From contig CP046866.1 in assembly GCA_009789175.1 (NCBI GenBank), positions 496,001-560,000 on the forward strand: a stretch of 64,000 bases of DNA, read 5' to 3'. Positions 8,578 to 64,000 of the stretch are shown here, one piece after another. The stretch comes from Salinibaculum litoreum (GTDB lineage: Archaea > Halobacteriota > Halobacteria > Halobacteriales > Haloarculaceae). The number at the start of each line of letters is the position of its first letter. The first letter of the stretch is position 1. Position numbers and translations under genes: made by a program. The notes under the pieces were generated by a model. The model saw only the letters and a program-made list of their open reading frames with translations, searched no databases and was not told the origin of the DNA.

Positions 8578-9651
8578 ATGATTACTGAGACACACTCACC
8601 GGAGTCTGATTCGCCAGATATTACGAGATATCTGGGCCAACTCTCGGCACAAAGCTTCCGCCAGTGGTATCGAGAGCGGGAGTATCGACAAAATATCGAG
8701 AACGGAAAGCCCTATTTCAACGGCGCAGCATCTGTCCCGGACCCAGAGCAACACAGTCCGAGTCAACTGCTGCAGTGTCATCGGAAAACCGTCTACCGCC
8801 AGGAGAATGCACCAGAGGAGAATTCAGACCCAGCTGGGATTTTCTGGTTCGGAACTCGTTTTGAGGAGGATATCATCTTTCCATTCTTCCGCGAGGTACT
8901 CACAGAGGACGGTACATACGTCCGGAATTCTGTCTGGGTCGATTATACGATCCAAACAGACGCTGGAGACATCTGCATCAAGGGGTCGACAGATCCCCTG
9001 ATTGTTGATGCTGATGCTGTCCCGATTCTCCCGACGGAGATCAAGACCAAAGCTTCACTCGAGAATGTGGATTCGCCAAACCGCCATCATCGCGCACAGT
9101 TCCACGCGTACATGCACGGGCTCTGTGAGAAATACGATATCGAGTTGAATGGAGGTGTCATTCTCTATGGTTCCCGAGAATCACTCGACGTGCAGAGTTT
9201 CTACGTCGAGTTTGACCAAGACTTCTGGGACGAGACAGTGACTGAGTGGGCCCGATCGCATACCGAGTACCGCCTGAAAGACACGCTTCCGCCAGCGGAT
9301 CCGGAATACAGCTGGGAATGCAAATTCTGTGACTACAGACAACGATGCGGGAAGGGAAATTCAGAGCACACCGATCGCGGACCACGTGGATTTCTACAGG
9401 GCGTCGAAGATTATCCTCGAGAGAAGGTCATTGGGTACCTGGAAGGGCATCCGCAAGAGAGGTTAACTCCCTCACTGGCTAGCCAGTATCCAGATCTGGT
9501 CGATGTTCACGGAGTCCGTGACTGGTACTGCAAAAGCTGTGAGTCGGAACTAAACTCAGTCGATCACATCGGGTTAGAGGAAGTGTCTGCTTTGGGAGGA
9601 TGTGCAACAACCCGAAGCAGACAGCGAAATAGAGGAAGAGCACCTGCTTAA
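8578..9651 (+). CDS. Cas4/RecB-like PD-(D/E)XK nuclease, C-terminus replaced by IS
   Basis: The product resembles Cas4-type nucleases: an early cysteine in LLQCHRKTVYRQ, an acidic pocket with GSTDPLIVD, the catalytic EIKTKAS (E-x-K), HRAQFHAYMHGL, and a cysteine cluster CKFCDYRQRCG that with the first Cys could bind an Fe-S cluster. Such enzymes cut or resect DNA ends. A further pair, YCKSCE, near residue 321 looks like the start of a zinc ribbon. Native sequence stops at about residue 326, where ISH3 copy A begins at 9557; the last 30 or so codons are read from IS DNA. The lost 3' part is not found to the right of the IS. The gene is not next to any CRISPR array or other cas gene, so a CRISPR adaptation role is not supported. 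Confidence 0.75.
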   Translation: MITETHSPESDSPDITRYLGQLSAQSFRQWYREREYRQNIENGKPYFNGAASVPDPEQHSPSQLLQCHRKTVYRQENAPEENSDPAGIFWFGTRFEEDIIFPFFREVLTEDGTYVRNSVWVDYTIQTDAGDICIKGSTDPLIVDADAVPILPTEIKTKASLENVDSPNRHHRAQFHAYMHGLCEKYDIELNGGVILYGSRESLDVQSFYVEFDQDFWDETVTEWARSHTEYRLKDTLPPADPEYSWECKFCDYRQRCGKGNSEHTDRGPRGFLQGVEDYPREKVIGYLEGHPQERLTPSLASQYPDLVDVHGVRDWYCKSCESELNSVDHIGLEEVSALGGCATTRSRQRNRGRAPA

Positions 9652-10747
9652 TTTTGTCGTCAACAGCCTCGACGAAGAGCTTGCGATAGACCTCGGTGAT
9701 GACGTCAAGGTCACGACAGAGACGTTGTACGAGGTCCTCGCCGGCGCCAGCGCCGGCGGGACCTCAATCAACCACGTCTGCGAAACGACCGGCGACTCGC
9801 CACACGCCAATACCGTCCGGGGACATCTCACCGAGCAGTTTGAGCTTGACTCGGTTGAGGCAGTTGGGGACACGCTCCTGCAGCGAGATGCGCTTGCGAC
9901 ACTTCCAGATCGACCGGTGGAGGTCTGTGCAGACCTCCACCTCGATCCCTACTACGGCGACGAAGACGAGACAGAGGCGCTGTACTTCTCGCAGGCGAAA
10001 CGAGGAACCACAACGTTTCATGCGTACGCGACGCTGTACGTACGAGTACGCAACAAACGATACACGCTGGCGGTGCGCCAGCTCGTCGCTGGCGACACCA
10101 CCAGCGATGTCCTCGCTGAGTTTCTCGAACTGCTCGACGGCCTTGACCTCAGCGTCAAGGCCGTCTACCTTGATCGTGGATTCTACAACAGCACCTGTCT
10201 CGGACTGCTGTACGCCCACAACTACGCCTATGCAATGCCGATTGTCAAGTGGGGCGAGACGATTCAAAACGAACTCAACAGGGGCTGGAGCCGCGAGATC
10301 GAGCACGATCTCGCCGGCGAGGTAACGTTCCCTGTGTTCATCGATTGTGTGTACCAGCAAGGGCGGTACGATGAACACGGAGTGGCGCGTCACGGCTACG
10401 CCGCTGACGCGCCGTTCATCGACACACCACGAGATGCTCGAGAGCACTACAGCAAGCGTTTCGGCATCGAGTCAAGCTACCGATTAGCCAAGCAGAGCCT
10501 CGCGTTCACCAGTTCTCAAGACGCTGGCCTGCGGCTAGTGATGTTTGTCGTGAGTCTGTTGCTGCAGAACAGCTGGCGGTATCTGCATTGGAGGTACGTG
10601 GCGGCGCCCCGCCGCGGGGGGCGCCGCCTCTGGAGATGGCCGTTCGCGGAGTTTTGTGAGATGGTGTTGCGGGCCGCTTGGACAGCGCTTGGTGTGCGTA
10701 GAGCAGTCCCAGCGAACCAGTCACTCGACGACCGGTTCTTCCGGTAG
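9602..10747 (+). CDS. ISH3-family DDE transposase (copy A)
   Basis: A 381-residue transposase with a GTG start just inside the left end. Candidate catalytic acids are the D in CADLHLDPYYGDE (about residue 110), the D in YLDRGFYN (about 195) and the E in RFGIESSYRLAK (about 290), an order and spacing typical of the IS4-like RNase H fold. The YR signature after the E (ESSYRLAK) supports this. It catalyses cut-and-paste movement through the 15-bp ends. The protein is identical in all three copies, so spread was recent. Confidence 0.9.
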   Translation: MQQPEADSEIEEEHLLNFVVNSLDEELAIDLGDDVKVTTETLYEVLAGASAGGTSINHVCETTGDSPHANTVRGHLTEQFELDSVEAVGDTLLQRDALATLPDRPVEVCADLHLDPYYGDEDETEALYFSQAKRGTTTFHAYATLYVRVRNKRYTLAVRQLVAGDTTSDVLAEFLELLDGLDLSVKAVYLDRGFYNSTCLGLLYAHNYAYAMPIVKWGETIQNELNRGWSREIEHDLAGEVTFPVFIDCVYQQGRYDEHGVARHGYAADAPFIDTPRDAREHYSKRFGIESSYRLAKQSLAFTSSQDAGLRLVMFVVSLLLQNSWRYLHWRYVAAPRRGGRRLWRWPFAEFCEMVLRAAWTALGVRRAVPANQSLDDRFFR

Positions 10748-13966: not shown

Positions 13967-14456
13967 TGGAACAACACCTCAACAATCATACTAACCTTGC
14001 TGACCGAGCCCGATCGAGTCGAGCTAGAAGTACTTGCTAACTGTGCGACTTCTTGGTCTAGGTACGTACTTCTTACGTACATTCCGCCTAACTCGATAGA
14101 GAAAAACTAAGATGAGCGAATATGTGGAGTAAGAGCTTACTATTAGACCATGTCTTTTTATTTTATACGAGAATGCGACTCAGAAGAATATCTGATTAAA
14201 GTACTGCGCCGTACAGCGGTTTTATTCGGTATGTATATATACTGTTAAATGGGAAGATCCAAAAATAGCGAGACAGGCTAAGAAAATACTAGTATTGTCT
14301 GGCGATTAACCTACTCTACTTATATACTAAATAGACCGAATATAATCATGACTTTCGAGGGTATCGCGACATTTTCACAGAAGATCGGTTCCTATTGCGG
14401 TTTTCTGTCGTTATTTATATGTGGCTGTTTTACAAAGATGATTCCAACCTCGGTCT
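13967..14456. other. AT-rich divergent promoter region between recombinase unit and hypothetical gene
   Basis: About 490 bp is conspicuously AT-rich. It holds several TATA-like stretches (for example around 14235 and 14315-14330) and a near-direct repetition of acgtac-containing sequence around 14060-14080 (tacgtacttcttacgtacat). I see no convincing gene. The repeated tacgtac motif upstream of the tyrosine recombinase could be an operator. Confidence 0.4.
14414..14420 (+). promoter_or_regulatory. Candidate TATA box upstream of the 298-aa hypothetical gene
   Basis: A tttatat element is centred 40 bp before ATG 14457, predicting a short leader of about 15 nt. This supports the ATG at 14457 rather than alternative upstream frames. 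Confidence 0.4.
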
Positions 14457-15353
14457 ATGCCAACGAACTACCTCTCAACAGGGGAAACAAACGACGTCAA
14501 ACTTGCCGCAGGAGCTTCTCTTACCGAGCGAGTTCCTGCTACCATGTTCCCGCGAGAGAGTGGGCAAATACCCTCTTGGGAAGTTGCGGCGGATTTGTTT
14601 GTCAGCGAGCGCAGGGATAAGAACCAGGCGAATCTGAGATTCACCGATACATGGACGAATTCTGTCTGGCACCGGCTATACGAGGCTCACAAAGAGGCCT
14701 GCTTTGACGAGTGTACGAACTTCGCACTGCTCGAGTTTTCGGGTAGCTTTCTCTTTGAAGACTCTGACCAGCCGATTCCCCCTCTCAACTATTTTAGTCT
14801 ACTCCAGAAATCGAAAGCTGCTCGAAAGAAGCGCCTAGATCGAGTACTCCGAGAGTGGGGTGCTTCTTCTCACCGGATACGAGTGATAGGTTCCGATCCA
14901 AGAGTGAAGAGCGAGTTGAGCGAGCCATTACCCTACTATAATTACGATGGGCAGTTCGATCACTATCTCCGGTCACAGGACCACTCGATACTGGGCTATC
15001 CGCGACAATTTCTGGGTCTGTATCTGTCTGAAGACGTGCCAGCACAGGAGTTGTACAAGGTCGTTGAATCACACCAGAATAACTGTCCAATTGCGACGAC
15101 CGGGGAGATGATCAATGGGAGTCCAATCAACGAGAGTGTCGTCCGAAACTCCGTCTGGAAATACGATGGGCCACCACTCCAAGCCAAAGACGATCAGAGC
15201 CAAAACGTTGTAAAGATGTTAGCGCGACGGATTCCAACCCTCGCGGAAAAGATCGACAGTATTGATGAAATCCCTCTCCGAAGACAGAAGACTGCAACCG
15301 TGATCGAAGCAGGGAACTGGCAAGCTTGTCGGAAAAGCCGGGTAGAGGTGTAA
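14457..15353 (+). CDS. Hypothetical protein (298 aa) of the mobile segment
   Basis: I do not recognise this 298-residue soluble protein. It has no signal peptide, membrane helix or obvious metal motif. Visible features are a helical basic patch (LQKSKAARKKRLDRVLREWG, about 120-139), a tyrosine-rich stretch (PLPYYNYDGQFDHYL), and GYPRQFLGLYLSEDVPAQELYKV. The basic helix and its place beside two recombinases suggest DNA-related work such as replication or partitioning of a mobile element, but that is only context. Codon use is more AT-rich than in the core genes. It appears monocistronic. Confidence 0.6.
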   Translation: MPTNYLSTGETNDVKLAAGASLTERVPATMFPRESGQIPSWEVAADLFVSERRDKNQANLRFTDTWTNSVWHRLYEAHKEACFDECTNFALLEFSGSFLFEDSDQPIPPLNYFSLLQKSKAARKKRLDRVLREWGASSHRIRVIGSDPRVKSELSEPLPYYNYDGQFDHYLRSQDHSILGYPRQFLGLYLSEDVPAQELYKVVESHQNNCPIATTGEMINGSPINESVVRNSVWKYDGPPLQAKDDQSQNVVKMLARRIPTLAEKIDSIDEIPLRRQKTATVIEAGNWQACRKSRVEV

Positions 15354-17688: not shown

Positions 17689-19063
17689 CAGTCGATCACA
17701 TCGGGTTAGAGGAAGTGTCTGCTTTGGGAGGATGTGCAACAACCCGAAGCAGACAGCGAAATAGAGGAAGAGCACCTGCTTAATTTTGTCGTCAACAGCC
17801 TCGACGAAGAGCTTGCGATAGACCTCGGTGATGACGTCAAGGTCACGACAGAGACGTTGTACGAGGTCCTCGCCGGCGCCAGCGCCGGCGGGACCTCAAT
17901 CAACCACGTCTGCGAAACGACCGGCGACTCGCCACACGCCAATACCGTCCGGGGACATCTCACCGAGCAGTTTGAGCTTGACTCGGTTGAGGCAGTTGGG
18001 GACACGCTCCTGCAGCGAGATGCGCTTGCGACACTTCCAGATCGACCGGTGGAGGTCTGTGCAGACCTCCACCTCGATCCCTACTACGGCGACGAAGACG
18101 AGACAGAGGCGCTGTACTTCTCGCAGGCGAAACGAGGAACCACAACGTTTCATGCGTACGCGACGCTGTACGTACGAGTACGCAACAAACGATACACGCT
18201 GGCGGTGCGCCAGCTCGTCGCTGGCGACACCACCAGCGATGTCCTCGCTGAGTTTCTCGAACTGCTCGACGGCCTTGACCTCAGCGTCAAGGCCGTCTAC
18301 CTTGATCGTGGATTCTACAACAGCACCTGTCTCGGACTGCTGTACGCCCACAACTACGCCTATGCAATGCCGATTGTCAAGTGGGGCGAGACGATTCAAA
18401 ACGAACTCAACAGGGGCTGGAGCCGCGAGATCGAGCACGATCTCGCCGGCGAGGTAACGTTCCCTGTGTTCATCGATTGTGTGTACCAGCAAGGGCGGTA
18501 CGATGAACACGGAGTGGCGCGTCACGGCTACGCCGCTGACGCGCCGTTCATCGACACACCACGAGATGCTCGAGAGCACTACAGCAAGCGTTTCGGCATC
18601 GAGTCAAGCTACCGATTAGCCAAGCAGAGCCTCGCGTTCACCAGTTCTCAAGACGCTGGCCTGCGGCTAGTGATGTTTGTCGTGAGTCTGTTGCTGCAGA
18701 ACAGCTGGCGGTATCTGCATTGGAGGTACGTGGCGGCGCCCCGCCGCGGGGGGCGCCGCCTCTGGAGATGGCCGTTCGCGGAGTTTTGTGAGATGGTGTT
18801 GCGGGCCGCTTGGACAGCGCTTGGTGTGCGTAGAGCAGTCCCAGCGAACCAGTCACTCGACGACCGGTTCTTCCGGTAGCTGTCCACCGATCCGGACAGC
18901 GGTCGTGAGTGGCGACACTGTCGCGTCGGCGGCGATCCGCCGCCGACAGCGACGGTCCATGCCGAAGATCCCGCTCACTAGCGCTTCGAAGACGCTCCAC
19001 GACCAGTTCAATCTGATTCACCGCCATCAGACGAGGTTACGCGGCTGTCGATGTGATCGACTG
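17689..19063 (+). mobile_element. ISH3-family insertion sequence, copy B (1375 bp)
   Basis: This copy has the same 15-bp inverted ends and length as copy A. It is flanked by a perfect 5-bp target duplication, agtat at 17684-17688 and 19064-19068, in line with the 5-bp duplications known for the ISH3 family. It is a simple insertion into the integrase gene and shows what an undisturbed copy looks like in this genome. Confidence 0.93.
17734..18879 (+). CDS. ISH3-family DDE transposase (copy B)
   Basis: Identical in sequence to the transposase of copy A (381 residues, GTG start). The candidate acids in DLHLDPYYGDE, YLDRGFYN and GIESSYRLAK are intact, so it is expected to be functional. With copy A it brackets 6.8 kb carrying both recombinase genes in direct orientation, so recombination between the two could delete that segment. 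Confidence 0.9.
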   Translation: MQQPEADSEIEEEHLLNFVVNSLDEELAIDLGDDVKVTTETLYEVLAGASAGGTSINHVCETTGDSPHANTVRGHLTEQFELDSVEAVGDTLLQRDALATLPDRPVEVCADLHLDPYYGDEDETEALYFSQAKRGTTTFHAYATLYVRVRNKRYTLAVRQLVAGDTTSDVLAEFLELLDGLDLSVKAVYLDRGFYNSTCLGLLYAHNYAYAMPIVKWGETIQNELNRGWSREIEHDLAGEVTFPVFIDCVYQQGRYDEHGVARHGYAADAPFIDTPRDAREHYSKRFGIESSYRLAKQSLAFTSSQDAGLRLVMFVVSLLLQNSWRYLHWRYVAAPRRGGRRLWRWPFAEFCEMVLRAAWTALGVRRAVPANQSLDDRFFR

Positions 19064-47505: not shown

Positions 47506-49434
47506 ATGGCAAGCAACAAGATTCTCGGCATCGACCTTGGGACCACGAACAGTGCGTTCGCGGTCATGGAAGGCGGTGACCCCGAGATTATCGTCAACAG
47601 CGAGGGTGACCGTACGACTCCGTCCGTGGTCGCGTTCGACGAGGGCGAACAGCTGGTAGGCAAGCCCGCGAAAAACCAGGCCGTCCAGAACCCTGACAAC
47701 ACAATCGAGTCCATCAAGCGGCACATGGGCGAGGACGACTACACCGTCGAGATGGAGGGCGAGGAGTACACGCCCGAGCAGGTCTCGGCGATGACGCTCC
47801 AGAAAATCAAACGCGACGCCGAGGACTACCTCGGCGACGAGGTGGAGAAAGCCGTCATCACGGTCCCCGCCTACTTCTCTGACCGGCAGCGCCAGGCCAC
47901 CAAAGACGCCGGCGAGATTGCCGGCTTCGAGGTCGAACGCATCATCAACGAGCCCACGGCTGCGGCGATGGCCTACGGGCTCGACGACGAGTCCGACCAG
48001 ACCGTCCTCGTCTACGACCTCGGTGGGGGAACCTTCGACGTCTCGATTCTGGAACTCGGCGGCGGCGTCTACGAAGTGGTCGCCACCAACGGTGACAACG
48101 ACCTCGGTGGCGACGACTGGGACGCGGCCATCGTCGAGCACCTCGCAGACGAGTTCGAAGCCGAGCACGGTATCGACCTCCGCGAGGACCGCCAGGCGCT
48201 CCAGCGGCTGTACGACGCCGCCGAGGAGGCGAAAATCGAGCTTTCGAACCGCAAGGAGACGACCATCACGCTGCCCTTTATCGCTTCTGACGACGATGGT
48301 CCGAAAGACCTCGACACCTCCCTGACGCGGGCGAAGTTCGAATCGCTGACTTCGGATCTGGTCGAGCGGACTGTCGGCCCGACCGAGCAGGCACTCTCCG
48401 ACGCCGGCTACAGCAAGTCAGATATCGACGAAGTCATCCTCGTCGGTGGCTCGACCCGGATGCCGCAGGTTCAGGAGAAAGTCGAGGAGCTCGCCGGCCA
48501 GGAACCCAAGAAAAACGTCAACCCCGACGAGGCCGTCGCGCTGGGTGCCGCCATCCAGGGTGGCGTCCTCTCCGGCGATGTCGACGACATCGTGCTCGTG
48601 GACGTGACGCCGCTGTCGCTGGGTGTCGAGGTCAAGGGCGGACTCTTCGAGCGCCTCATCGAGAAAAACACCACTATCCCGACCGAGGAGTCGAAAATCT
48701 TCACGACCGCCCAGGACAACCAGACGCAGGTCCAGATTCGTGTCTTCCAGGGCGAGCGTGAGATCGCAAACGAGAACGAACTACTCGGGGAGTTCTCGCT
48801 GACCGGCATTCCGCCGTCACCCGCCGGCGTGCCCCAGATTGAGGTCACTTTCGCCCTCGACGAGAACGGCATCGTCAACGTTTCAGCCGAGGACAAGGGC
48901 TCGGGCAACGAGGAACAGATTACCATCGAAGGTGGCGCTGGGCTCTCGGACGACCAGATCGAGCAGATGCAGGAGGAAGCCGAGCAACACGCCGAGGAAG
49001 ACGAGAAGCGCCGCGAGCGCATCGAGGCCCGCAACCAGGCCGAGTCGACCATCCAGCGTGCCGAGACGCTGCTCGACGAGAACGAAGAAAACGTCGACGA
49101 GGACCTTCAGGCCGACATCGAGGACGCAATCGGCGAAGTCGAGGACGTGCTCGAACAGGAGGAACCCACGAAAGAGGAAATCGAGCAGGCCACGGAGTAC
49201 CTCGCCGAGGAACTCCAGGAAATCGGCAAGCAGGTCTACCAGCAACAGGCTGCCGAGGGCGCTGCTGGCGCTGGCGCAGCAGGTGCCGGCGCAGCCGGAG
49301 CCGGTCCCGGCGCTGGCGCAGGCGCTGGTCCCGGTGCCGGAGCCGCGGGCGCTGGCCCCGGCGCTGGGGCGGGCGAGGAGGAGTACGTCGACGCCGACTT
49401 CGAAGACGTGGACGACGAAGAGAGCGACGAATAA
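47506..49434 (+). CDS. dnaK: Molecular chaperone DnaK (Hsp70)
   Basis: The 642-residue Hsp70 has the nucleotide-binding domain motifs [30 protein letters not shown] and [14 protein letters not shown], the linker region [13 protein letters not shown] and the substrate-binding domain. The C-terminus is a long Gly/Ala/Pro repeat tract ([15 protein letters not shown] type, about 580-620) ending in the acidic [16 protein letters not shown]. It folds and protects cytoplasmic proteins together with DnaJ (81 bp downstream) and GrpE (2 kb upstream). A second, more divergent Hsp70 lies at 62399. Confidence 0.96.
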
Positions 49435-54422: not shown

Positions 54423-54906
54423 TTAATCGTTCGGGTCCGACGACTCGTCTGTCAGTTGCCCGAGGCCGTGTCGAACCAGTTCGTCTCGCCACTGATTGAT
54501 CTCTTCGGCTAGGTCGATGTCCTCGGTGTTCGTTTGGAGGTAGTTGACGATTTGTTCTTCGCTCACCGTCCGTTCGTCCGTGCCGAACCGTTTCAGAATG
54601 TCCCGAATCTCGTCGTCGTAGTCGAACCGATATCCGTTGAGAAGGTAGAATACGACGACTGCGTTGAGCGCCGTCCGCTTGTTCCCGTCCACGAACGGGT
54701 GATTGGCAACGAGCAGTCGAAGCAGGTGATACGCTTTTTCGTGAATCGTGTTGGGAACCGAAACTCCCCTCCTCGACGAACTCAAGCGCGAACCCCACGT
54801 CCCCTCGACTCTGGACACCGGAGCTGGTATCCGGGTACTCTGACACGATGTCGCCATGGATGTCGATGACGTCCTCGACCGACGGATACCAGAGCGAGTC
54901 GCTCAT
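54423..54906 (-). pseudogene. doc: Doc/Fic-family toxin with frameshift
   Basis: The first half (MSDSLWYPSVEDVIDIHGDIV ... ALEFVEEG) and the second half (NTIHEKAYHLLRLLVANHPFVDGNKRTALNAVV) lie in different frames. They join naturally at about 54755-54770, where a run of four C on the plus strand (54766-54769) could hold one extra base. The Fic-type motif HPFVDGNKRTA is complete. Death-on-curing toxins transfer phosphate or AMP to EF-Tu-type targets. In this sequence a full product would need a frameshift, so the gene is either decayed, misread by sequencing, or subject to slippage. Confidence 0.8.
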
Positions 54907-55081: not shown

Positions 55082-55573
55082 CTACTCGTCTACTTCTGAG
55101 AGAGCGCGTGAGTAGAGGTCGTCGGACATCCAGAACCCGGCCTCGCGGAGGGCATCGAGTTCCCGCTCCAAGTCCACCTCGTCGGTTTTCGCCCCACGGA
55201 GTAGAATGCCGATAACGCCAGTAACCTCCAAGTCGTGTCTCCGGGCGACGCGTCGTCCGTCCCGCTCGTCGAGCAAAACGAGGTCGGCATCGTGATCGAC
55301 TGCATAGCAGATCGCCGCTGTCTCCCCGAGATCGAGTTCGTGGAAGACTTCGACGAATAGGTCCGAGCGCTCCACCTCGGCGATATTCAAGAAATTGGCA
55401 TCGCGTAGCTCCCGGAGCGCCTCCAGTCCTTCCTCCCCTTCGGTAAGTTCGTTCCAGACCTGTTGTGGAACCGTAACCTCAGAGAACTGCGATTCGAGGA
55501 GCTCAAGCCGTTCGGTGAGTGCGAGGTTCAGAAGAGTCGAGGTGTCCGAGACGACGAGCCCACTATTCGGCAT
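55082..55573 (-). CDS. PIN-domain toxin (DUF3368-like)
   Basis: From ATG at 55573 (MPNSGLVVSDTSTLLNLALTE) the protein has 163 residues. It is a PIN-fold RNase with acidic residues in VVSDTSTLLNL, LGETAAICYA and LVLLDERDGRRVAR, matching VapC-like enzymes of the DUF3368 group, and ends DDLYSRALSEVDE. It would cut RNA when free. The start lies inside the last codons of the UPF0175 gene (11-bp overlap), giving a standard antitoxin-then-toxin pair. Confidence 0.87.
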   Translation of the reverse strand: MPNSGLVVSDTSTLLNLALTERLELLESQFSEVTVPQQVWNELTEGEEGLEALRELRDANFLNIAEVERSDLFVEVFHELDLGETAAICYAVDHDADLVLLDERDGRRVARRHDLEVTGVIGILLRGAKTDEVDLERELDALREAGFWMSDDLYSRALSEVDE

Positions 55574-55808
55574 AGTCGAGATCTTCTTCGAGTTCCCGCT
55601 CGCCATAGTGGCGGGGAATCTCACGCTCGCCGAGGAGTTCCTGAAACTCCCCTTTCGACATCTCCGCTAACGTACGGGCTTTGCCGAACGAGAGAACGTC
55701 ACGGGCGTACAGCGAGACCGCCAACTCCCGCTTCATCGCGGGCGAGCGCTCCCCTTCCGGGAGTTGTAACGCCTCGTAAACGTCGTCGTCGATCTCTATG
55801 GTCGCCAT
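55563..55808 (-). CDS. UPF0175-family antitoxin
   Basis: From ATG at 55808 (MATIEIDDDVYEALQLPEGE) the protein has 81 residues; codons further upstream are non-conserved. It is a ribbon-helix-like N-terminus followed by ELAVSLYARDVLSFGKARTLAEMSKGEFQELLGEREIPRHY, the UPF0175 signature. These proteins neutralise PIN toxins and usually repress their own operon. The gene precedes and overlaps the PIN gene. Confidence 0.87.
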   Translation of the reverse strand: MATIEIDDDVYEALQLPEGERSPAMKRELAVSLYARDVLSFGKARTLAEMSKGEFQELLGEREIPRHYGERELEEDLDYAE

Positions 55809-55997: not shown

Positions 55998-56040
55998 TCA
56001 AACCCACGGGTCGAGTTCCTCGCGTCCACCGAACGAATCT
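55998..56040 (-). pseudogene. 3' end of a gene cut off by ISH3 copy C
   Basis: Between repeat 3 and the IS end, one minus-strand frame reads DSFGGREELDPWV and stops at 55998. The composition is that of a real haloarchaeal protein tail. It would be the last codons of a gene whose body lay beyond the IS. The five bases on the two sides of the IS do not match, and the right flank does not continue this frame, so the body has been lost or moved. Confidence 0.35.
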
Positions 56041-57415
56041 CAGTCGATCACATCGACAGCCGCGTAACCTCGTCTGATGGCGGTGAATCAGATTGAACTG
56101 GTCGTGGAGCGTCTTCGAAGCGCTAGTGAGCGGGATCTTCGGCATGGACCGTCGCTGTCGGCGGCGGATCGCCGCCGACGCGACAGTGTCGCCACTCACG
56201 ACCGCTGTCCGGATCGGTGGACAGCTACCGGAAGAACCGGTCGTCGAGTGACTGGTTCGCTGGGACTGCTCTACGCACACCAAGCGCTGTCCAAGCGGCC
56301 CGCAACACCATCTCACAAAACTCCGCGAACGGCCATCTCCAGAGGCGGCGCCCCCCGCGGCGGGGCGCCGCCACGTACCTCCAATGCAGATACCGCCAGC
56401 TGTTCTGCAGCAACAGACTCACGACAAACATCACTAGCCGCAGGCCAGCGTCTTGAGAACTGGTGAACGCGAGGCTCTGCTTGGCTAATCGGTAGCTTGA
56501 CTCGATGCCGAAACGCTTGCTGTAGTGCTCTCGAGCATCTCGTGGTGTGTCGATGAACGGCGCGTCAGCGGCGTAGCCGTGACGCGCCACTCCGTGTTCA
56601 TCGTACCGCCCTTGCTGGTACACACAATCGATGAACACAGGGAACGTTACCTCGCCGGCGAGATCGTGCTCGATCTCGCGGCTCCAGCCCCTGTTGAGTT
56701 CGTTTTGAATCGTCTCGCCCCACTTGACAATCGGCATTGCATAGGCGTAGTTGTGGGCGTACAGCAGTCCGAGACAGGTGCTGTTGTAGAATCCACGATC
56801 AAGGTAGACGGCCTTGACGCTGAGGTCAAGGCCGTCGAGCAGTTCGAGAAACTCAGCGAGGACATCGCTGGTGGTGTCGCCAGCGACGAGCTGGCGCACC
56901 GCCAGCGTGTATCGTTTGTTGCGTACTCGTACGTACAGCGTCGCGTACGCATGAAACGTTGTGGTTCCTCGTTTCGCCTGCGAGAAGTACAGCGCCTCTG
57001 TCTCGTCTTCGTCGCCGTAGTAGGGATCGAGGTGGAGGTCTGCACAGACCTCCACCGGTCGATCTGGAAGTGTCGCAAGCGCATCTCGCTGCAGGAGCGT
57101 GTCCCCAACTGCCTCAACCGAGTCAAGCTCAAACTGCTCGGTGAGATGTCCCCGGACGGTATTGGCGTGTGGCGAGTCGCCGGTCGTTTCGCAGACGTGG
57201 TTGATTGAGGTCCCGCCGGCGCTGGCGCCGGCGAGGACCTCGTACAACGTCTCTGTCGTGACCTTGACGTCATCACCGAGGTCTATCGCAAGCTCTTCGT
57301 CGAGGCTGTTGACGACAAAATTAAGCAGGTGCTCTTCCTCTATTTCGCTGTCTGCTTCGGGTTGTTGCACATCCTCCCAAAGCAGACACTTCCTCTAACC
57401 CGATGTGATCGACTG
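56041..57415 (-). mobile_element. ISH3-family insertion sequence, copy C (1375 bp, inverted)
   Basis: Same length and ends as copies A and B but in the opposite orientation. Flanking five bases are aatct (left) and attct (right), not a duplication. It lies between the TA modules and the conjugation-like genes. Recombination between C and the inverted copies A or B would invert 37-46 kb of chromosome. Confidence 0.9.
56225..57370 (-). CDS. ISH3-family DDE transposase (copy C)
   Basis: Identical 381-residue transposase to copies A and B, on the minus strand. The candidate catalytic residues are intact (DLHLDPYYGDE, YLDRGFYN, GIESSYRLAK). All three genes are expected to be functional and able to act on one another's ends. 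Confidence 0.9.
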   Translation of the reverse strand: MQQPEADSEIEEEHLLNFVVNSLDEELAIDLGDDVKVTTETLYEVLAGASAGGTSINHVCETTGDSPHANTVRGHLTEQFELDSVEAVGDTLLQRDALATLPDRPVEVCADLHLDPYYGDEDETEALYFSQAKRGTTTFHAYATLYVRVRNKRYTLAVRQLVAGDTTSDVLAEFLELLDGLDLSVKAVYLDRGFYNSTCLGLLYAHNYAYAMPIVKWGETIQNELNRGWSREIEHDLAGEVTFPVFIDCVYQQGRYDEHGVARHGYAADAPFIDTPRDAREHYSKRFGIESSYRLAKQSLAFTSSQDAGLRLVMFVVSLLLQNSWRYLHWRYVAAPRRGGRRLWRWPFAEFCEMVLRAAWTALGVRRAVPANQSLDDRFFR

Positions 57416-57457
57416 ATTCTCTCCACACAGGTCCCGAGTAGGGAAACCAGCTGGATC

Positions 57458-59755
57458 ATGCTGGGGATTACGACAACCACACCACTCCCTGTTGAGGGAC
57501 CTATCGCTGCAACAGACGCCGGGTTGATAGATGCCTTCGCCACGATTCTCGTCACGGTTCAAGCGACGATTCTCGTCCTAGGGTTCATCGCACTGTTTGT
57601 CGGGTTCGGGCTGTACGTCCTAAAACCATCCGGAGCAGAGCGAGCGCAGGCCATCCTCTGGCGAGTTCCAATCATGCTCATCGGCGCATACGGCTTCATC
57701 TCGGTCTTTCGAGCCATCGGCTACATCCTGTTTAATTTCTCGCGTATCGACCGAGTCCCAACCGTATTCTTCGGCCCAGCTATTCTCACGTTTCCCGACC
57801 TCTCCCGATTCAGCACATTCGGCCGTGGCTTCAGCGTCACACCTACGACGGATACGGCGTACAATATTCTCCTCAACGGCCTCTTTCCCGCAGCCCAATT
57901 GACACTGTGGGCCATCGCTGTGACCATGCTAGTTGTTGGCGCTCTCACCTATGTCTTCGGTGACAAGAAGACTGGGCGCACGCGGTTCACGCGAGGTGGT
58001 ATCGCCTTTGCCGGTGCCTTACTCGTCCCCGCCATCTTGAGCGCGATTAGTTGGGTTATTCCAGAACTCGGCCCAGTCCAACTCATCGGTGGTGGCCCCT
58101 GGAGTGACATCGAAACAGCAGGCACGTTCGGTGAGCGGAACACGGACCTCCTATTGGCGCTTATTCGAGCAACAGACATGATTCTGCTGACGCTATTTGT
58201 CAGTGGATTTATAGCCCTGACTGACGCCCTCGTGAGATATATAACACGTGGCGAAATAGGCCAGTACAACGTCCCCCAAGTTGTCGGATTACTAATTGTC
58301 CTCTTTATCCCGTTGAGCATCCTCCGCGCCATCGTCGCCATCGTCCCTAGCATCAGTTCACTCCCAGGGACAGTCGTGACAGCCAACTACAGCGGGGGAG
58401 GTCTCGCCCTGGTTATCCCATTCGATGCCGCCGGCAACCTGACACCACGGATTGCACCGCTGGCACGGACACTGTCGAATTTTCTGAGCGTCGTCCAGGC
58501 AACATTACTGTTAGCCGGTATCCTGACCGCGTTCTACACCGTCGTCGTATATGCATTCGGCCAAGATACCGACGCCTTGTACCAGCGGGCTCGTGGCGTC
58601 GGTATTACACTAGTCACCGTCTACGCCTACTCGGCACTGTTCAAAGCTATTGGCTACGGAATTCCTGGAGCAACACTCGATAGTACCAGCCAGCAGCTGG
58701 CCATCATCTCAACTGTCACCTTCCCAGTTCAGTTTCTGCCCATCAGTCCAGGGCTCGGCATCTATACAGGAGTCGGCGAACGTCAATCCGTCATCGATGC
58801 ACTGAGTAACCTGTTCCTCATTAACCAACTGACACTATTCGTTCTTGCATGTGTCATGCTCATGTACGGCGTCGCCCAATTCGCTATTGGTCAGCAAGCA
58901 AGCGGGGAACACCCATCGATGGCAATCAGAGCTGCCAAGGTCGCCCTCATTGTCTTCATCATCAGCCCACTGCTGGAAGCCATCAGCTGGATAGCAACCG
59001 GGACAAGCGTTTCTAGCTCGTCTATTGACATCGCACTCGCCGGTAACGAGGTTGCGGTCGTATCACTCCCATCCATTGCACTCGTCGGTATTTCCGTCAA
59101 CACCGTGCTTGGTATCGGAGCGAACTACGACGCTAGTATACAAGCCGTAGAACGTGCCACAGGAATCTCGATAGCATCAGTCGCCACCATTGCCTTCGTG
59201 GGTATCATGTTCGGTCTGTTGCTATACTCCGATAATTTCAAACTCAGTGGCCGGAACGCAAAACTTAGCGAATACAGTCAACACCTTATCTGGGCGATGG
59301 GATTGTTGCTTATCATCACTTTCGCACTCCCGCCAGTACTGGCTACCGCTGGGTGGGTAGCAACGGGCGAACCAACAGAAACTGGCCAAGAGCTCTCTGG
59401 ATCGGGTACTACAGTCGAAACATTCAGCACGGACAATCACGGATGGAAAGCCGCTTCCGGGACACTCACCCGAACAGAAATAGAGGGTGACAACAAACTC
59501 CTCATTGATGGTGTCGGACGCAAAGAATACACCACACCAGAGTTAGGCGTCAACAAAAACGGCACCACAACTGTGGTAGTCATCACAACGAACACGACAG
59601 CGGCAATCACCATCCGGAACAACGGCGCAACCTACTCATCACAGACTGTCGACAGTGGTCAACACGCACTTCCCGTCCCAGACGGAGAACATACTATCAC
59701 TGTCGCTGGCACTAATGTCGCCGTCGACGACATCACTTATCGGGTCTACTTGTGA
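57458..59755 (+). CDS. Polytopic membrane protein of six VirB2/TrbC-like hairpins with external beta domain
   Basis: The start MLGITTTTPLP (765 residues) is the first ATG after the IS. The protein repeats one unit six times: a hydrophobic helix, a short basic/polar cytoplasmic loop, a second helix ending in a small-residue and aromatic motif. Second-helix ends are FRAIGYI (about 84), LSAISWV (194), LRAIVAI (289), FKAIGYG (395), LEAISWIATG (506) and LATAGWVATG (628). First-helix and loop parts include LYVLKPSGAERAQ, TYVFGDKKTGRTR, VRYITRGEIGQ, VYAFGQDTDALYQ and QFAIGQQASGEHP. The last unit is followed by a 125-residue external domain rich in Thr/Asn (about 640-765). The next gene encodes one such hairpin as a free pilin. 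I infer a membrane platform or pilus component; no family is known to me. Confidence 0.75.
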   Translation: MLGITTTTPLPVEGPIAATDAGLIDAFATILVTVQATILVLGFIALFVGFGLYVLKPSGAERAQAILWRVPIMLIGAYGFISVFRAIGYILFNFSRIDRVPTVFFGPAILTFPDLSRFSTFGRGFSVTPTTDTAYNILLNGLFPAAQLTLWAIAVTMLVVGALTYVFGDKKTGRTRFTRGGIAFAGALLVPAILSAISWVIPELGPVQLIGGGPWSDIETAGTFGERNTDLLLALIRATDMILLTLFVSGFIALTDALVRYITRGEIGQYNVPQVVGLLIVLFIPLSILRAIVAIVPSISSLPGTVVTANYSGGGLALVIPFDAAGNLTPRIAPLARTLSNFLSVVQATLLLAGILTAFYTVVVYAFGQDTDALYQRARGVGITLVTVYAYSALFKAIGYGIPGATLDSTSQQLAIISTVTFPVQFLPISPGLGIYTGVGERQSVIDALSNLFLINQLTLFVLACVMLMYGVAQFAIGQQASGEHPSMAIRAAKVALIVFIISPLLEAISWIATGTSVSSSSIDIALAGNEVAVVSLPSIALVGISVNTVLGIGANYDASIQAVERATGISIASVATIAFVGIMFGLLLYSDNFKLSGRNAKLSEYSQHLIWAMGLLLIITFALPPVLATAGWVATGEPTETGQELSGSGTTVETFSTDNHGWKAASGTLTRTEIEGDNKLLIDGVGRKEYTTPELGVNKNGTTTVVVITTNTTAAITIRNNGATYSSQTVDSGQHALPVPDGEHTITVAGTNVAVDDITYRVYL

Positions 59756-59869
59756 GGAACATCTCACTTCATTAGCACACAACACAAACGGTCCAACAAT
59801 CAAGAGCATATAATAACCATCAATGACCGTAAAGCACATTTAGTTGCAGTGTCCAGTAGCGACTATACG

Positions 59870-60286
59870 ATGGGTGGCGAATCGGCACAGACGACCGTCT
59901 CCAATACGTCCAACAGTATGTTTGCTAGCCGACTGCGCCTACACAGACTGAAGCGAGTCACGAGACGGGCCGGGGTTACGTTACTCCCCATTGGTATCAT
60001 CGCACTCGTCATCCTCGTTGAACCAGCCGCCGCTCAGACTGATGTCTCCGACCTTGAGATTTTCAACGTCATCGACCGAATGCACCGAGCTCTGCGAAAC
60101 ATCCTCTATCTCAGTACCCCGGCGGTATTTCTTATCGGCCTCGGTGCGTGGGCGCTAACCAAACGCAACTCCGGGTACGCCGCGATAGGGCAGAATATCG
60201 CCCTGAAGTCCCTCGCCGCATTCGGCATCGCACTCGGCATTGAGGTTTTCTTTCAGGCTGCCGCCTGGGTCGCAACAGCAGTTTGA
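59870..60286 (+). CDS. VirB2/TrbC-like pilin
   Basis: From ATG (MGGESAQTTVSNTSN) the product has 138 residues; a GTG 21 bp upstream is possible. It has a long basic N-terminus (RLHRLKRVTRRAG) and a signal helix TLLPIGIIALVILVEPAAAQ with a typical AxA site. The mature part is a short helix and a hairpin: NILYLSTPAVFLIGLGAWAL, a basic loop TKRNSGYAAIGQN, and IALKSLAAFGIALGIEVFFQ ending AAAWVATAV. This is the topology of conjugative-pilus subunits and of archaeal CedA1-like pilins. A TATA-like cata-taataac lies about 60 bp upstream. Confidence 0.75.
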   Translation: MGGESAQTTVSNTSNSMFASRLRLHRLKRVTRRAGVTLLPIGIIALVILVEPAAAQTDVSDLEIFNVIDRMHRALRNILYLSTPAVFLIGLGAWALTKRNSGYAAIGQNIALKSLAAFGIALGIEVFFQAAAWVATAV

Positions 60287-61046: not shown

Positions 61047-61844
61047 ATGACTAGAGATTGTGGTCCTCGGAGCTGGTCCGAGCCGCCACAGCCCATTCGC
61101 TGTGCCAGTCGGACAACCGACCGCCCAGCAGAGTTACAGCGTCTCTATGAGCTCTTGGCCACCCTCAACGGCGTCGCCGGCCACCACTATCTTCGGAATT
61201 ACGACACCGACGCCTATCCCGACAGAGGCATCTATTTTGTCTTCTCCGCGGGGACGAACCTCGACCAGCCGCCCGAGACGTGGGAGTTGACACGCATCGG
61301 AACCATCGGCGTAAGCGAGGGCAGCACCGCGACCCTCTCACAACGACTCCGACAGCACCGCGGGACGGCATCCTCAAAGTACGGTCAGAATGGTGGGAAC
61401 CACCGTGGAAGCGTGTTCCGTCGCTGGGTTGGGGAAGCCTTCATCAATCGGATGGAAGCCATCGAAACCTACCCGTACTGGGGGGAGACCACCGCCGACC
61501 TCCCGGATGTCCAGCGGGTCCGCAGAGAGGAACACCAACTGGAACAGCAGGTATCAGCGTACATCCGCAATCTCCCGCTGCTCGTCGTCAATGTCCCTGG
61601 AGAGGCAACGAAGACCAGTGACAGAGCCTACATCGAGAAAAATCTCATCGGCCTGGTCTCCCAGCAGCGCCGACAGGCTGACATCTCGATAACTGGCTGG
61701 CTGGGAAACGACGCACGGCACGAGATTCGACGCTCCGGGCTGTGGAACGTCGCCCACATCAACGGCCTATACGACACCGGAGCGCTAGACCGTCTCGAAG
61801 CCTGCATCACCGAAAACCACAGCTCACCCGAGAATAACAACTGA
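61047..61844 (+). CDS. GIY-YIG-like nuclease-domain protein
   Basis: The 265-residue protein has a GIY-YIG-like arrangement: RGIYFVFSAG (GIY part, about 60-69), then RIGTIGVSEGSTATLSQRLRQHRG (YIG-like part with Arg/His in place of the usual RxxxH), FRRWVGEAFINR and ESR/E-region IEKNLIGLVSQQRR. These match the order of strands and catalytic residues of GIY-YIG nucleases, although the strict GIY-x10-YIG text is altered. It might cut DNA or RNA; in a conjugation-like setting, processing of transferred DNA is possible. The N-terminal 25 residues look non-native, so a later start may be used. Confidence 0.6.
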   Translation: MTRDCGPRSWSEPPQPIRCASRTTDRPAELQRLYELLATLNGVAGHHYLRNYDTDAYPDRGIYFVFSAGTNLDQPPETWELTRIGTIGVSEGSTATLSQRLRQHRGTASSKYGQNGGNHRGSVFRRWVGEAFINRMEAIETYPYWGETTADLPDVQRVRREEHQLEQQVSAYIRNLPLLVVNVPGEATKTSDRAYIEKNLIGLVSQQRRQADISITGWLGNDARHEIRRSGLWNVAHINGLYDTGALDRLEACITENHSSPENNN

Positions 61845-62335: not shown

Positions 62336-62398
62336 CTGGCAGCCAATGTGGCCCCACACTACGGGGCAGCCAGCAAACGGACACAGGAGCAAGAACCT

Positions 62399-64000
62399 AT
62401 GACTGATGGACCAATCCTCGGTATCGACCTTGGGACGACCAACAGCGTGATGACCGTGTATCAGGAGGACGGCCCGAAAGTCGTCCTGAACTCCCGACGT
62501 GACCGCATTACGCCGTCAGTCGTCACCTATACTGATTCAGAGACGCTTATCGGGCAGCCAGCGGATAACGTTCGGAAGCGGTATCCCGGCAAGACACTGG
62601 AGCAGGTGAAAAAAGATATCGGCAAGGACTGGGAAGACGACCGCGACAAGCGAGACAAGTACACGATAGATGGGAAGATGTACTCGCCGGTCGATGTCTC
62701 TGAAGAGATTCTGCGGAAGCTCAAACGCGATGCTGAAGACTTCTTCCAGGACAGCATCTCACGGTGTATCATCACGGTCCCCGCAGGGTGGGGAAACGCA
62801 GAGCGTGAGGCAACGAAGATTGCCGCCGAGCGGGCTGGGTTCGAAGTCGAACGTCTACTGCATGAACCGAGTGCGGCGGCGATTGCATATGGTATCGACA
62901 TCTACGAGGAGCAGACACTGTTCGTCTACGATCTCGGTGGCGGAACCTTCGACGCGTCTGTCCTCGAGGTGGGCGGTGGTATCTGTGAGGCCAACGCGAC
63001 CGGAACAGCTGCTGTCGGCGGCAGCGACTGTGACGAGGCGCTCTACGAATTTGCGCTGGACGCCTTCGAGGAGGACCACGGCACGCGCCCCGCCGATGAT
63101 GACCACGAAGCCCGACAGCGGCTCCTCGAAGAGGTCCGCAAGAAGAAGCACGAGCTGTCGAACCGCGAGGAAGTGACCATCCGCATCCCGTTCTTCTGCG
63201 AAGACCAACAGGGTGAGCCACAGGACCTCGAAGTCGATGTGGACCGCGAGGAGTTCACAGGCCTCATCAGCGGCATCCTCTCGAAAACCCGGGAGAAGAC
63301 ACAGCAGGTCGTCGACGCCTCGGATTACGACTACCGTGATATCGACTCCGTCCTGTTAATTGGTGGCGCGACGCAAATGCCACAGGTTGATGACATCATC
63401 GACGGGATGTTCGAGTCGCCAGTCCAGGGTAACATCAACCCGGACGAAACGGTAGCACTCGGGGCAGGTATCCAAGCCGGCATCGAGAGCGGCTCGGTCA
63501 AGGATATGATGGTCATCGACGTGACGCCACTCTCATTCGGTATCAAGGTTAAAGGCGGACTGTTCGAGCGCGTCATCGAGCGGTCGACGCGCATCCCCAC
63601 GGAAGTGACACAGGACTTTACGACATCGGAGGACAACCAACGGCGTATCAGCGTCGAAGTCTATCAGGGCGAGCGCGAGATAGCCGACCACAATCACCAC
63701 GTCGGTGGGTTCGTCCTTAGCGGTATCCCGCCGGCTCCGGCTGGCGTCCCCAATATCAAGGTGCGGTTTAGCATCGACGACGACGGCATCATCTCTGTCG
63801 AAGCAGTGGACACCGGCACTGGAAACAGTCAGCACCTGGAAATCTCGGAAGGGCTCTCTCTGACCGGGCGGGAAATCGAACGACAGAAAGCAGAAGCCCG
63901 GCGACTCTCCGAGTACGACCAGAAGTATCGCCGGCACACGACCACCGTCAACCAAGCCGAGGAAGCCATCTCGCGTGCCCAGACGCTCATCAACAAGAAC
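62399..64000 (+). CDS. Accessory Hsp70 (DnaK-like), 3' end outside window
   Basis: From ATG ([21 protein letters not shown]) the frame is open to the window edge (534 codons). The nucleotide-binding domain is complete, with [26 protein letters not shown] and SVLLIGGATQMPQV, then [20 protein letters not shown] and the substrate domain (QGEREIADHNHHVGGFVLSG). It differs from the genome's DnaK at 47506 in many positions (for example PAGWGNAEREAT for [12 protein letters not shown], and HEPSAAAIAYGID for [13 protein letters not shown]), so it is a separate lineage, not a copy. Lying with pilin-like genes, it may serve the membrane system or protect transferred DNA or proteins; this is inference. 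Confidence 0.88.
   Translation, partial: MTDGPILGIDLGTTNSVMTVYQEDGPKVVLNSRRDRITPSVVTYTDSETLIGQPADNVRKRYPGKTLEQVKKDIGKDWEDDRDKRDKYTIDGKMYSPVDVSEEILRKLKRDAEDFFQDSISRCIITVPAGWGNAEREATKIAAERAGFEVERLLHEPSAAAIAYGIDIYEEQTLFVYDLGGGTFDASVLEVGGGICEANATGTAAVGGSDCDEALYEFALDAFEEDHGTRPADDDHEARQRLLEEVRKKKHELSNREEVTIRIPFFCEDQQGEPQDLEVDVDREEFTGLISGILSKTREKTQQVVDASDYDYRDIDSVLLIGGATQMPQVDDIIDGMFESPVQGNINPDETVALGAGIQAGIESGSVKDMMVIDVTPLSFGIKVKGGLFERVIERSTRIPTEVTQDFTTSEDNQRRISVEVYQGEREIADHNHHVGGFVLSGIPPAPAGVPNIKVRFSIDDDGIISVEAVDTGTGNSQHLEISEGLSLTGREIERQKAEARRLSEYDQKYRRHTTTVNQAEEAISRAQTLINKN

Follow-up and report, generated by a model that had tools for sequence, protein, structure and literature searches.

The question raised by this locus is how a haloarchaeal membrane protein came to resemble a string of pilins, and what such a protein might do beside a pilin gene. 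In the window, by which we mean the whole 64,000-nucleotide stretch of Salinibaculum litoreum DNA that was analysed, a gene encodes a membrane protein, P0001, which a sequence-only reading had described as six concatenated units of helix, basic loop and helix with an external beta domain, followed by a gene (P0002) for one free unit. The open reading frame, the motifs that end the six units and the AAAWVATAV of the next gene were all confirmed as written in the sequence; positions are collected in Table 1.

Table 1. Features discussed in the text; positions without a prefix are those of the window.
Feature	Position	Strand	Remark
IS element, transposase 56225-57370	56039..57417	-	outer limits are those common to the copies compared
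P0001, 765-residue membrane protein, six pilin-like hairpins and C-terminal beta-rich region	57458..59755	+	
Hairpin unit 1, ending AIGYI	57500..57748	+	
Hairpin unit 2, ending AISWV	57842..58093	+	
Hairpin unit 3, ending AIVAI	58124..58369	+	most diverged of the six
Hairpin unit 4, ending AIGYG	58448..58681	+	partner of unit 1
Hairpin unit 5, ending AISWIATG	58784..59041	+	partner of unit 2
Hairpin unit 6, ending AGWVATG	59123..59392	+	
P0001 C-terminal region, ~120 residues, probably extracellular and beta-rich	59393..59752	+	strands only in a low-confidence model
P0002, 145-residue TrbC/VirB2-like pilin, signal peptide (AAA before Q63), one hairpin	59849..60286	+	alternative start ATG at 59918
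VirB4 of the window genome	L006 10762-12870		Pfam P-loop_TraG, E 4.6e-11
587-residue protein of the window genome, C-terminus of two pilin-like hairpins	L093 9663-11426 (G000:C1 689663-691426)		
Small proteins of two tandem pilin-type hairpins, haloarchaeal T4SS loci	L055 7682-8245, L063 7157-7660, L061 6400-6906, L079 1240-1782, L081 2447-2947		

The proposed internal repeat of P0001 is real, since the two halves of the protein align in register and an HMM built from outside units matches it at six places. Residues 11-318 aligned with residues 319-650 with a score of 134, against a mean of 51.5 (sd 9.9, maximum 82) in 300 shuffles. When units were compared pairwise with shuffles that keep local hydropathy, six of 15 pairs reached a z of ~4 or more, the highest being units 2 and 5 (z 9.3), with 5.7 for units 1 and 4; unit 3 resembled the remaining units weakly. 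The HMM, for which eight units were taken from Halosimplex pelagicum and Halohasta litorea and none from the window, scored 54.7 bits on P0001 at six in-register places, compared with 7.5 for the best of 300 local shuffles; its matches were strong for units 2, 5 and 6, weaker for 4 and 1, and marginal for 3. P0001 consists of one three-hairpin block present twice (2 x 3), and duplication of this block accounts for the pairing of unit 1 with unit 4 and of unit 2 with unit 5.

The hairpins themselves are evident from hydropathy, which gave 12 helices in six pairs followed by a soluble C-terminal stretch of ~125 residues. The basic loop ascribed to every unit did not hold up outside units 2 and 6, the other loops being weakly charged. 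The linkers between hairpins are mostly acidic, and the trend to basic loops and acidic linkers is clearest in relatives of P0001. These charges suggest a topology with the N-terminus outside, the loops inside and the C-terminus outside. The external beta domain is likely; hhalign gave no support (probability 0.8%) for a shared origin with the beta domains found in the relatives. A match of G080 to this C-terminal region sits in a lipoprotein-like frame and was judged to be due to chance. An AF2 model of P0001 from a six-row alignment (mean pLDDT 31, pTM 0.22) was not used.

An IS element lies upstream of P0001, its end ~40 bp from the start codon. Truncation of P0001 by this element was considered and rejected, as the element stops short of the ATG and the relatives have N-terminal tails of a similar kind; the reading frame thus looks whole. 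The insertion may nevertheless have displaced the promoter, and it makes expression of P0001 in this strain uncertain. Copies of the same IS, identical in the flanks compared, lie in the window at 9602-10747, 17734-18879 and 56225-57370 and in L006 at 14029-15174, with additional copies in L094 (6143-7288) and L093 (13375-14520). Several other genes may be recorded here. Genes of the Fic family and of a DUF3368/PIN-like type (54423-54857 and 55082-55624) lie at the edge of the mobile region and are probably pieces of toxin-antitoxin systems. A 265-residue protein (61047-61844) shows weak GIY-YIG similarity, and its match to PDC-M57B, a candidate defence family of PADLOC, has an E of 3.6e-54. 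There are two Hsp70/DnaK genes (62348-64000 and 47506-49434), so that the region holds a second one besides that with a DnaJ-like neighbour, and both the N- and C-terminal domains of PCNA occur in one protein inside the mobile region (L005 13358-14716). A six-helix protein (L005 11222-12082) has GIGD and YTD motifs that by eye recall presenilin-type GxGD proteases; it gave no Pfam match.

The product of the next gene, P0002, had been taken for a VirB2/TrbC-type pilin with a signal peptide, and we agree: it is homologous to haloarchaeal pilins and has a two-helix hairpin after the signal peptide. A hydrophobic stretch (residues 43-61) and an AAA|Q site precede helices at 68-103 and 109-144; the true start may be the downstream ATG at 59918. 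With the pilin of H. litorea, P0002 shares 38% identity (E 2e-19). Its score against Pfam TrbC (15.4 bits) is under the cut-off of 27.9, and its aligned relative in L060 is above it at 28.9. Related pilins occur in 40 plasmid records, some of them named TrbC/VirB2 by NCBI. Compared with the PDB, the hairpin of P0002, predicted with moderate confidence, came closest to 8dfu, the conjugation pilin of Aeropyrum pernix (Z 8.2 over 78 residues, rmsd 3.4); hairpins give a Z of ~7 to many unrelated chains, and a score of this size does not on its own prove the relation.

The units of P0001 were also proposed to resemble such pilins, and profile-profile comparison and genome scans, in which pilins were the best non-self matches, uphold this. 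A profile of 16 units aligned with 12 pilins at an hhalign probability of 94.5% (P 8e-8, 82 columns). With a set of pilins from other plasmids, from which P0002 and the two relatives nearest to it were excluded, the units of P0001 alone gave 89.9% (P 1.7e-6) and those of other genomes 93.4% (P 2.5e-7). These probabilities are uncalibrated for membrane proteins, and controls were run for that reason: reversed alignments gave 0.4-0.7%, pairs of neighbouring helices from VirB6-like and A24 proteins ≤4.6%, and of 40 column shuffles one reached 44.7% and the rest ≤2.5%. In whole-genome scans with the unit profile, the best matches after its own members were TrbC-like pilins (G077, G372 and G004; E 4.5e-7 to 2.4e-6), followed by a second locus of the window genome; chance matches to transporters start near E 1e-4. 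Identity between units and pilins is low. Plain hmmsearch with the pilins of other plasmids found P0001 only at E 0.19, so that the relation is visible only with profiles on both sides, and the link between P0002 and the units likewise rests on profile-profile comparison because the unit profile scored P0002 not above shuffles by hmmsearch. Searches of PDB sequences with P0001, the pilin profile and the unit profile gave nothing relevant. At the profile level, then, the hairpin units are related to pilins.

Relatives of P0001 carry other numbers of hairpins. A 2382-residue protein of H. pelagicum (G093) carries 13 CARDB Ig-like domains besides its five hairpins, and one of 1868 residues in H. 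litorea (G372) has three hairpins and a similar Ig stalk. Both are encoded far from the VirB4 operons of their own genomes, and A24 prepilin-peptidase-like genes lie close to them (L007 6123-7244, L015 10770-11780). A shorter relative (847 residues; H. litorea and Halorubrum laminariae) combines a PQQ-type beta-propeller, a single hairpin and a C-terminal beta domain. When a unit profile (A4) was run over 391 genomes from the class and 142 from the family, such multi-hairpin proteins came up only in the window genome, G372 and G093. With the pilin profile, two-hairpin proteins of 166-191 residues emerge as well, near T4SS genes or pilins in several haloarchaea, and the 587-residue two-hairpin protein of the window genome has a propeller-like front part (by eye) and a ParA-like gene nearby. 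With these the module is used in one, two, three, five and six copies. Six is therefore not a required ring size, and the suggestion of a fixed ring of six finds no support: relatives have one, three or five hairpins, and the six of P0001 are 2 x 3. Searches with P0001 itself gave nothing significant in Pfam, PHROGs, NCBIfam or PDB sequences, nor among plasmids, phages and viral contigs; the five-hairpin relative had no match in the plasmid, phage and viral collections and the one-hairpin relative none among plasmids.

The two-gene order, which the sequence-only reading proposed to look for, recurs in other haloarchaea, with a one-hairpin gene directly before the pilin gene in L053, L054 and L056 (three genera), matching P0001 and P0002. 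In H. litorea (L050/L056) and Halorubrum laminariae (L053), the 847-residue one-hairpin protein and a 122-residue pilin are followed in the same direction by T4SS genes, encoding a 373-residue protein in the VirB3/PrgI position, a 952-residue VirB4 and a 2007-residue VirB6-like protein. In H. pelagicum (L054), three tandem one-hairpin genes of 78x residues precede the pilin. The labels VirB3/PrgI and VirB6-like reflect position, helices and mutual haloarchaeal homology, these proteins having no Pfam match. The window genome has VirB3-position, VirB4 and VirB6-like genes ~23 kb downstream (L006); its VirB4 is 47-49% identical to those of the other haloarchaeal operons, and its VirB6-like gene is interrupted in the 3' part by another copy of the IS that precedes P0001. 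As its T4SS genes are scattered and IS-interrupted, the system in this genome may be decaying. Plasmid records with a VirB4 relative number 273, and many are haloarchaeal. MOB-suite types haloarchaeal plasmids with VirB4 and TrbC-type genes as non-mobilizable, perhaps because archaeal relaxases go unrecognised.

The repeat, the relation to pilins, the slot before the pilin gene and the T4SS genes downstream together argue that P0001 probably serves a haloarchaeal conjugation-type T4SS as an accessory protein, made by joining VirB2/TrbC-type pilin hairpins, here a three-hairpin block used twice. Most likely it would be a membrane- or pilus-embedded scaffold that displays an outer adhesion domain. 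The hairpins would be embedded in the membrane, their loops facing inwards and the linkers and tail outwards. They may pack against one another and against pilin subunits at the pilus base or end, and the C-terminal domain would thereby be held on the cell surface for adhesion or contact with a mating partner; the relatives would display a beta-propeller or an extended Ig stalk in this way. It is possible, although we would not lean on it, that proteins of one to six covalently joined pilin modules replace pilin subunits at the tip or base as a pre-assembled pilus end, which would start or cap the pilus and offer the partner cell an adhesin in the form of a beta-propeller, Ig stalk or beta domain.

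It seems unlikely that the hairpins are only a multi-pass membrane anchor, descended from pilins and no longer assembling with them, in which more hairpins would mean a firmer hold. The freedom with which hairpin number (1, 3, 5 or 6) and outer domains vary would suit an anchor, as would the distance of the five- and three-hairpin genes from their VirB4 operons; yet the one-hairpin form stands constantly beside the pilin gene in three genera, and a single helix is enough for anchoring, as in Ig-like plasmid proteins with one C-terminal helix. Less probable still is a DNA channel or pilus base, a covalent ring that would export or import DNA in the manner of CedA/VirB6. CedA, whose N-terminal part is reported to share homology with the CedA1 pilin (PMC9905601), is like P0001 a larger membrane protein with a pilin-homologous region, and the 5-start protofilaments common to archaeal and bacterial conjugation pili (PMC9905601) would go with a relative of five hairpins. 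However, each operon has a separate VirB6-like gene, the unit profile matched the helix pairs of haloarchaeal VirB6-like proteins at ≤1.6%, and the one- and three-hairpin forms could not make the same ring alone. That P0001 is an ordinary transporter, or an unrelated, internally duplicated polytopic protein whose hairpins converged on those of pilins, could be argued from low identity, simple hairpins and the chance transporter matches, and is very improbable given the failure of the reversed, shuffled and membrane-hairpin controls, the rank of pilins above all other families in genome scans, the operon context and the lack of any significant match to known transporters when Pfam, NCBIfam and PDB sequences were searched.

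As a probable T4SS accessory protein built from pilin-type hairpins, P0001 has partial counterparts among described systems. The VirB2/TrbC pilins (PF04956, including archaeal CedA1 and TedC) are, like its units, two-helix hairpins with a short loop, and their genes adjoin VirB4/VirB6-type genes; P0002 is of this kind. They are single hairpins of ~80-120 residues, one per polypeptide, whereas P0001 has six joined, a C-terminal outer region and, unlike them, no obvious signal peptide. Ced, Ted and pT33-3 are, like the haloarchaeal loci, archaeal conjugation-type systems with VirB4-type parts, and Ced and Ted have VirB2- and VirB6-type parts too. In the available portions of PMC9905601 and PMC12857230, the Ced and Ted pilins are single-hairpin with no concatemer reported, and for pT33-3 only VirB4/VirD4-like proteins are described, again with no concatemer; the available text of a 2025 T4SS review covers archaeal systems with no haloarchaeal examples and no pilin fusions (PMC12857230). 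By analogy, CedA is a precedent for a pilin hairpin within a larger protein rather than for a string of hairpins. The sequence-only reading knew of no six-fold fusion, and our search of the open literature, as distinct from subscription papers, found no pilin concatemer, consistent with one new to described systems.

The haloarchaeal loci thus have a VirB2/VirB4/VirB6-type set together with fusions of the pilin module to surface domains, and in them the pilin hairpin is reused as a modular membrane part. The structure of the pilus end and cell-cell contact thereby become testable in culturable species.
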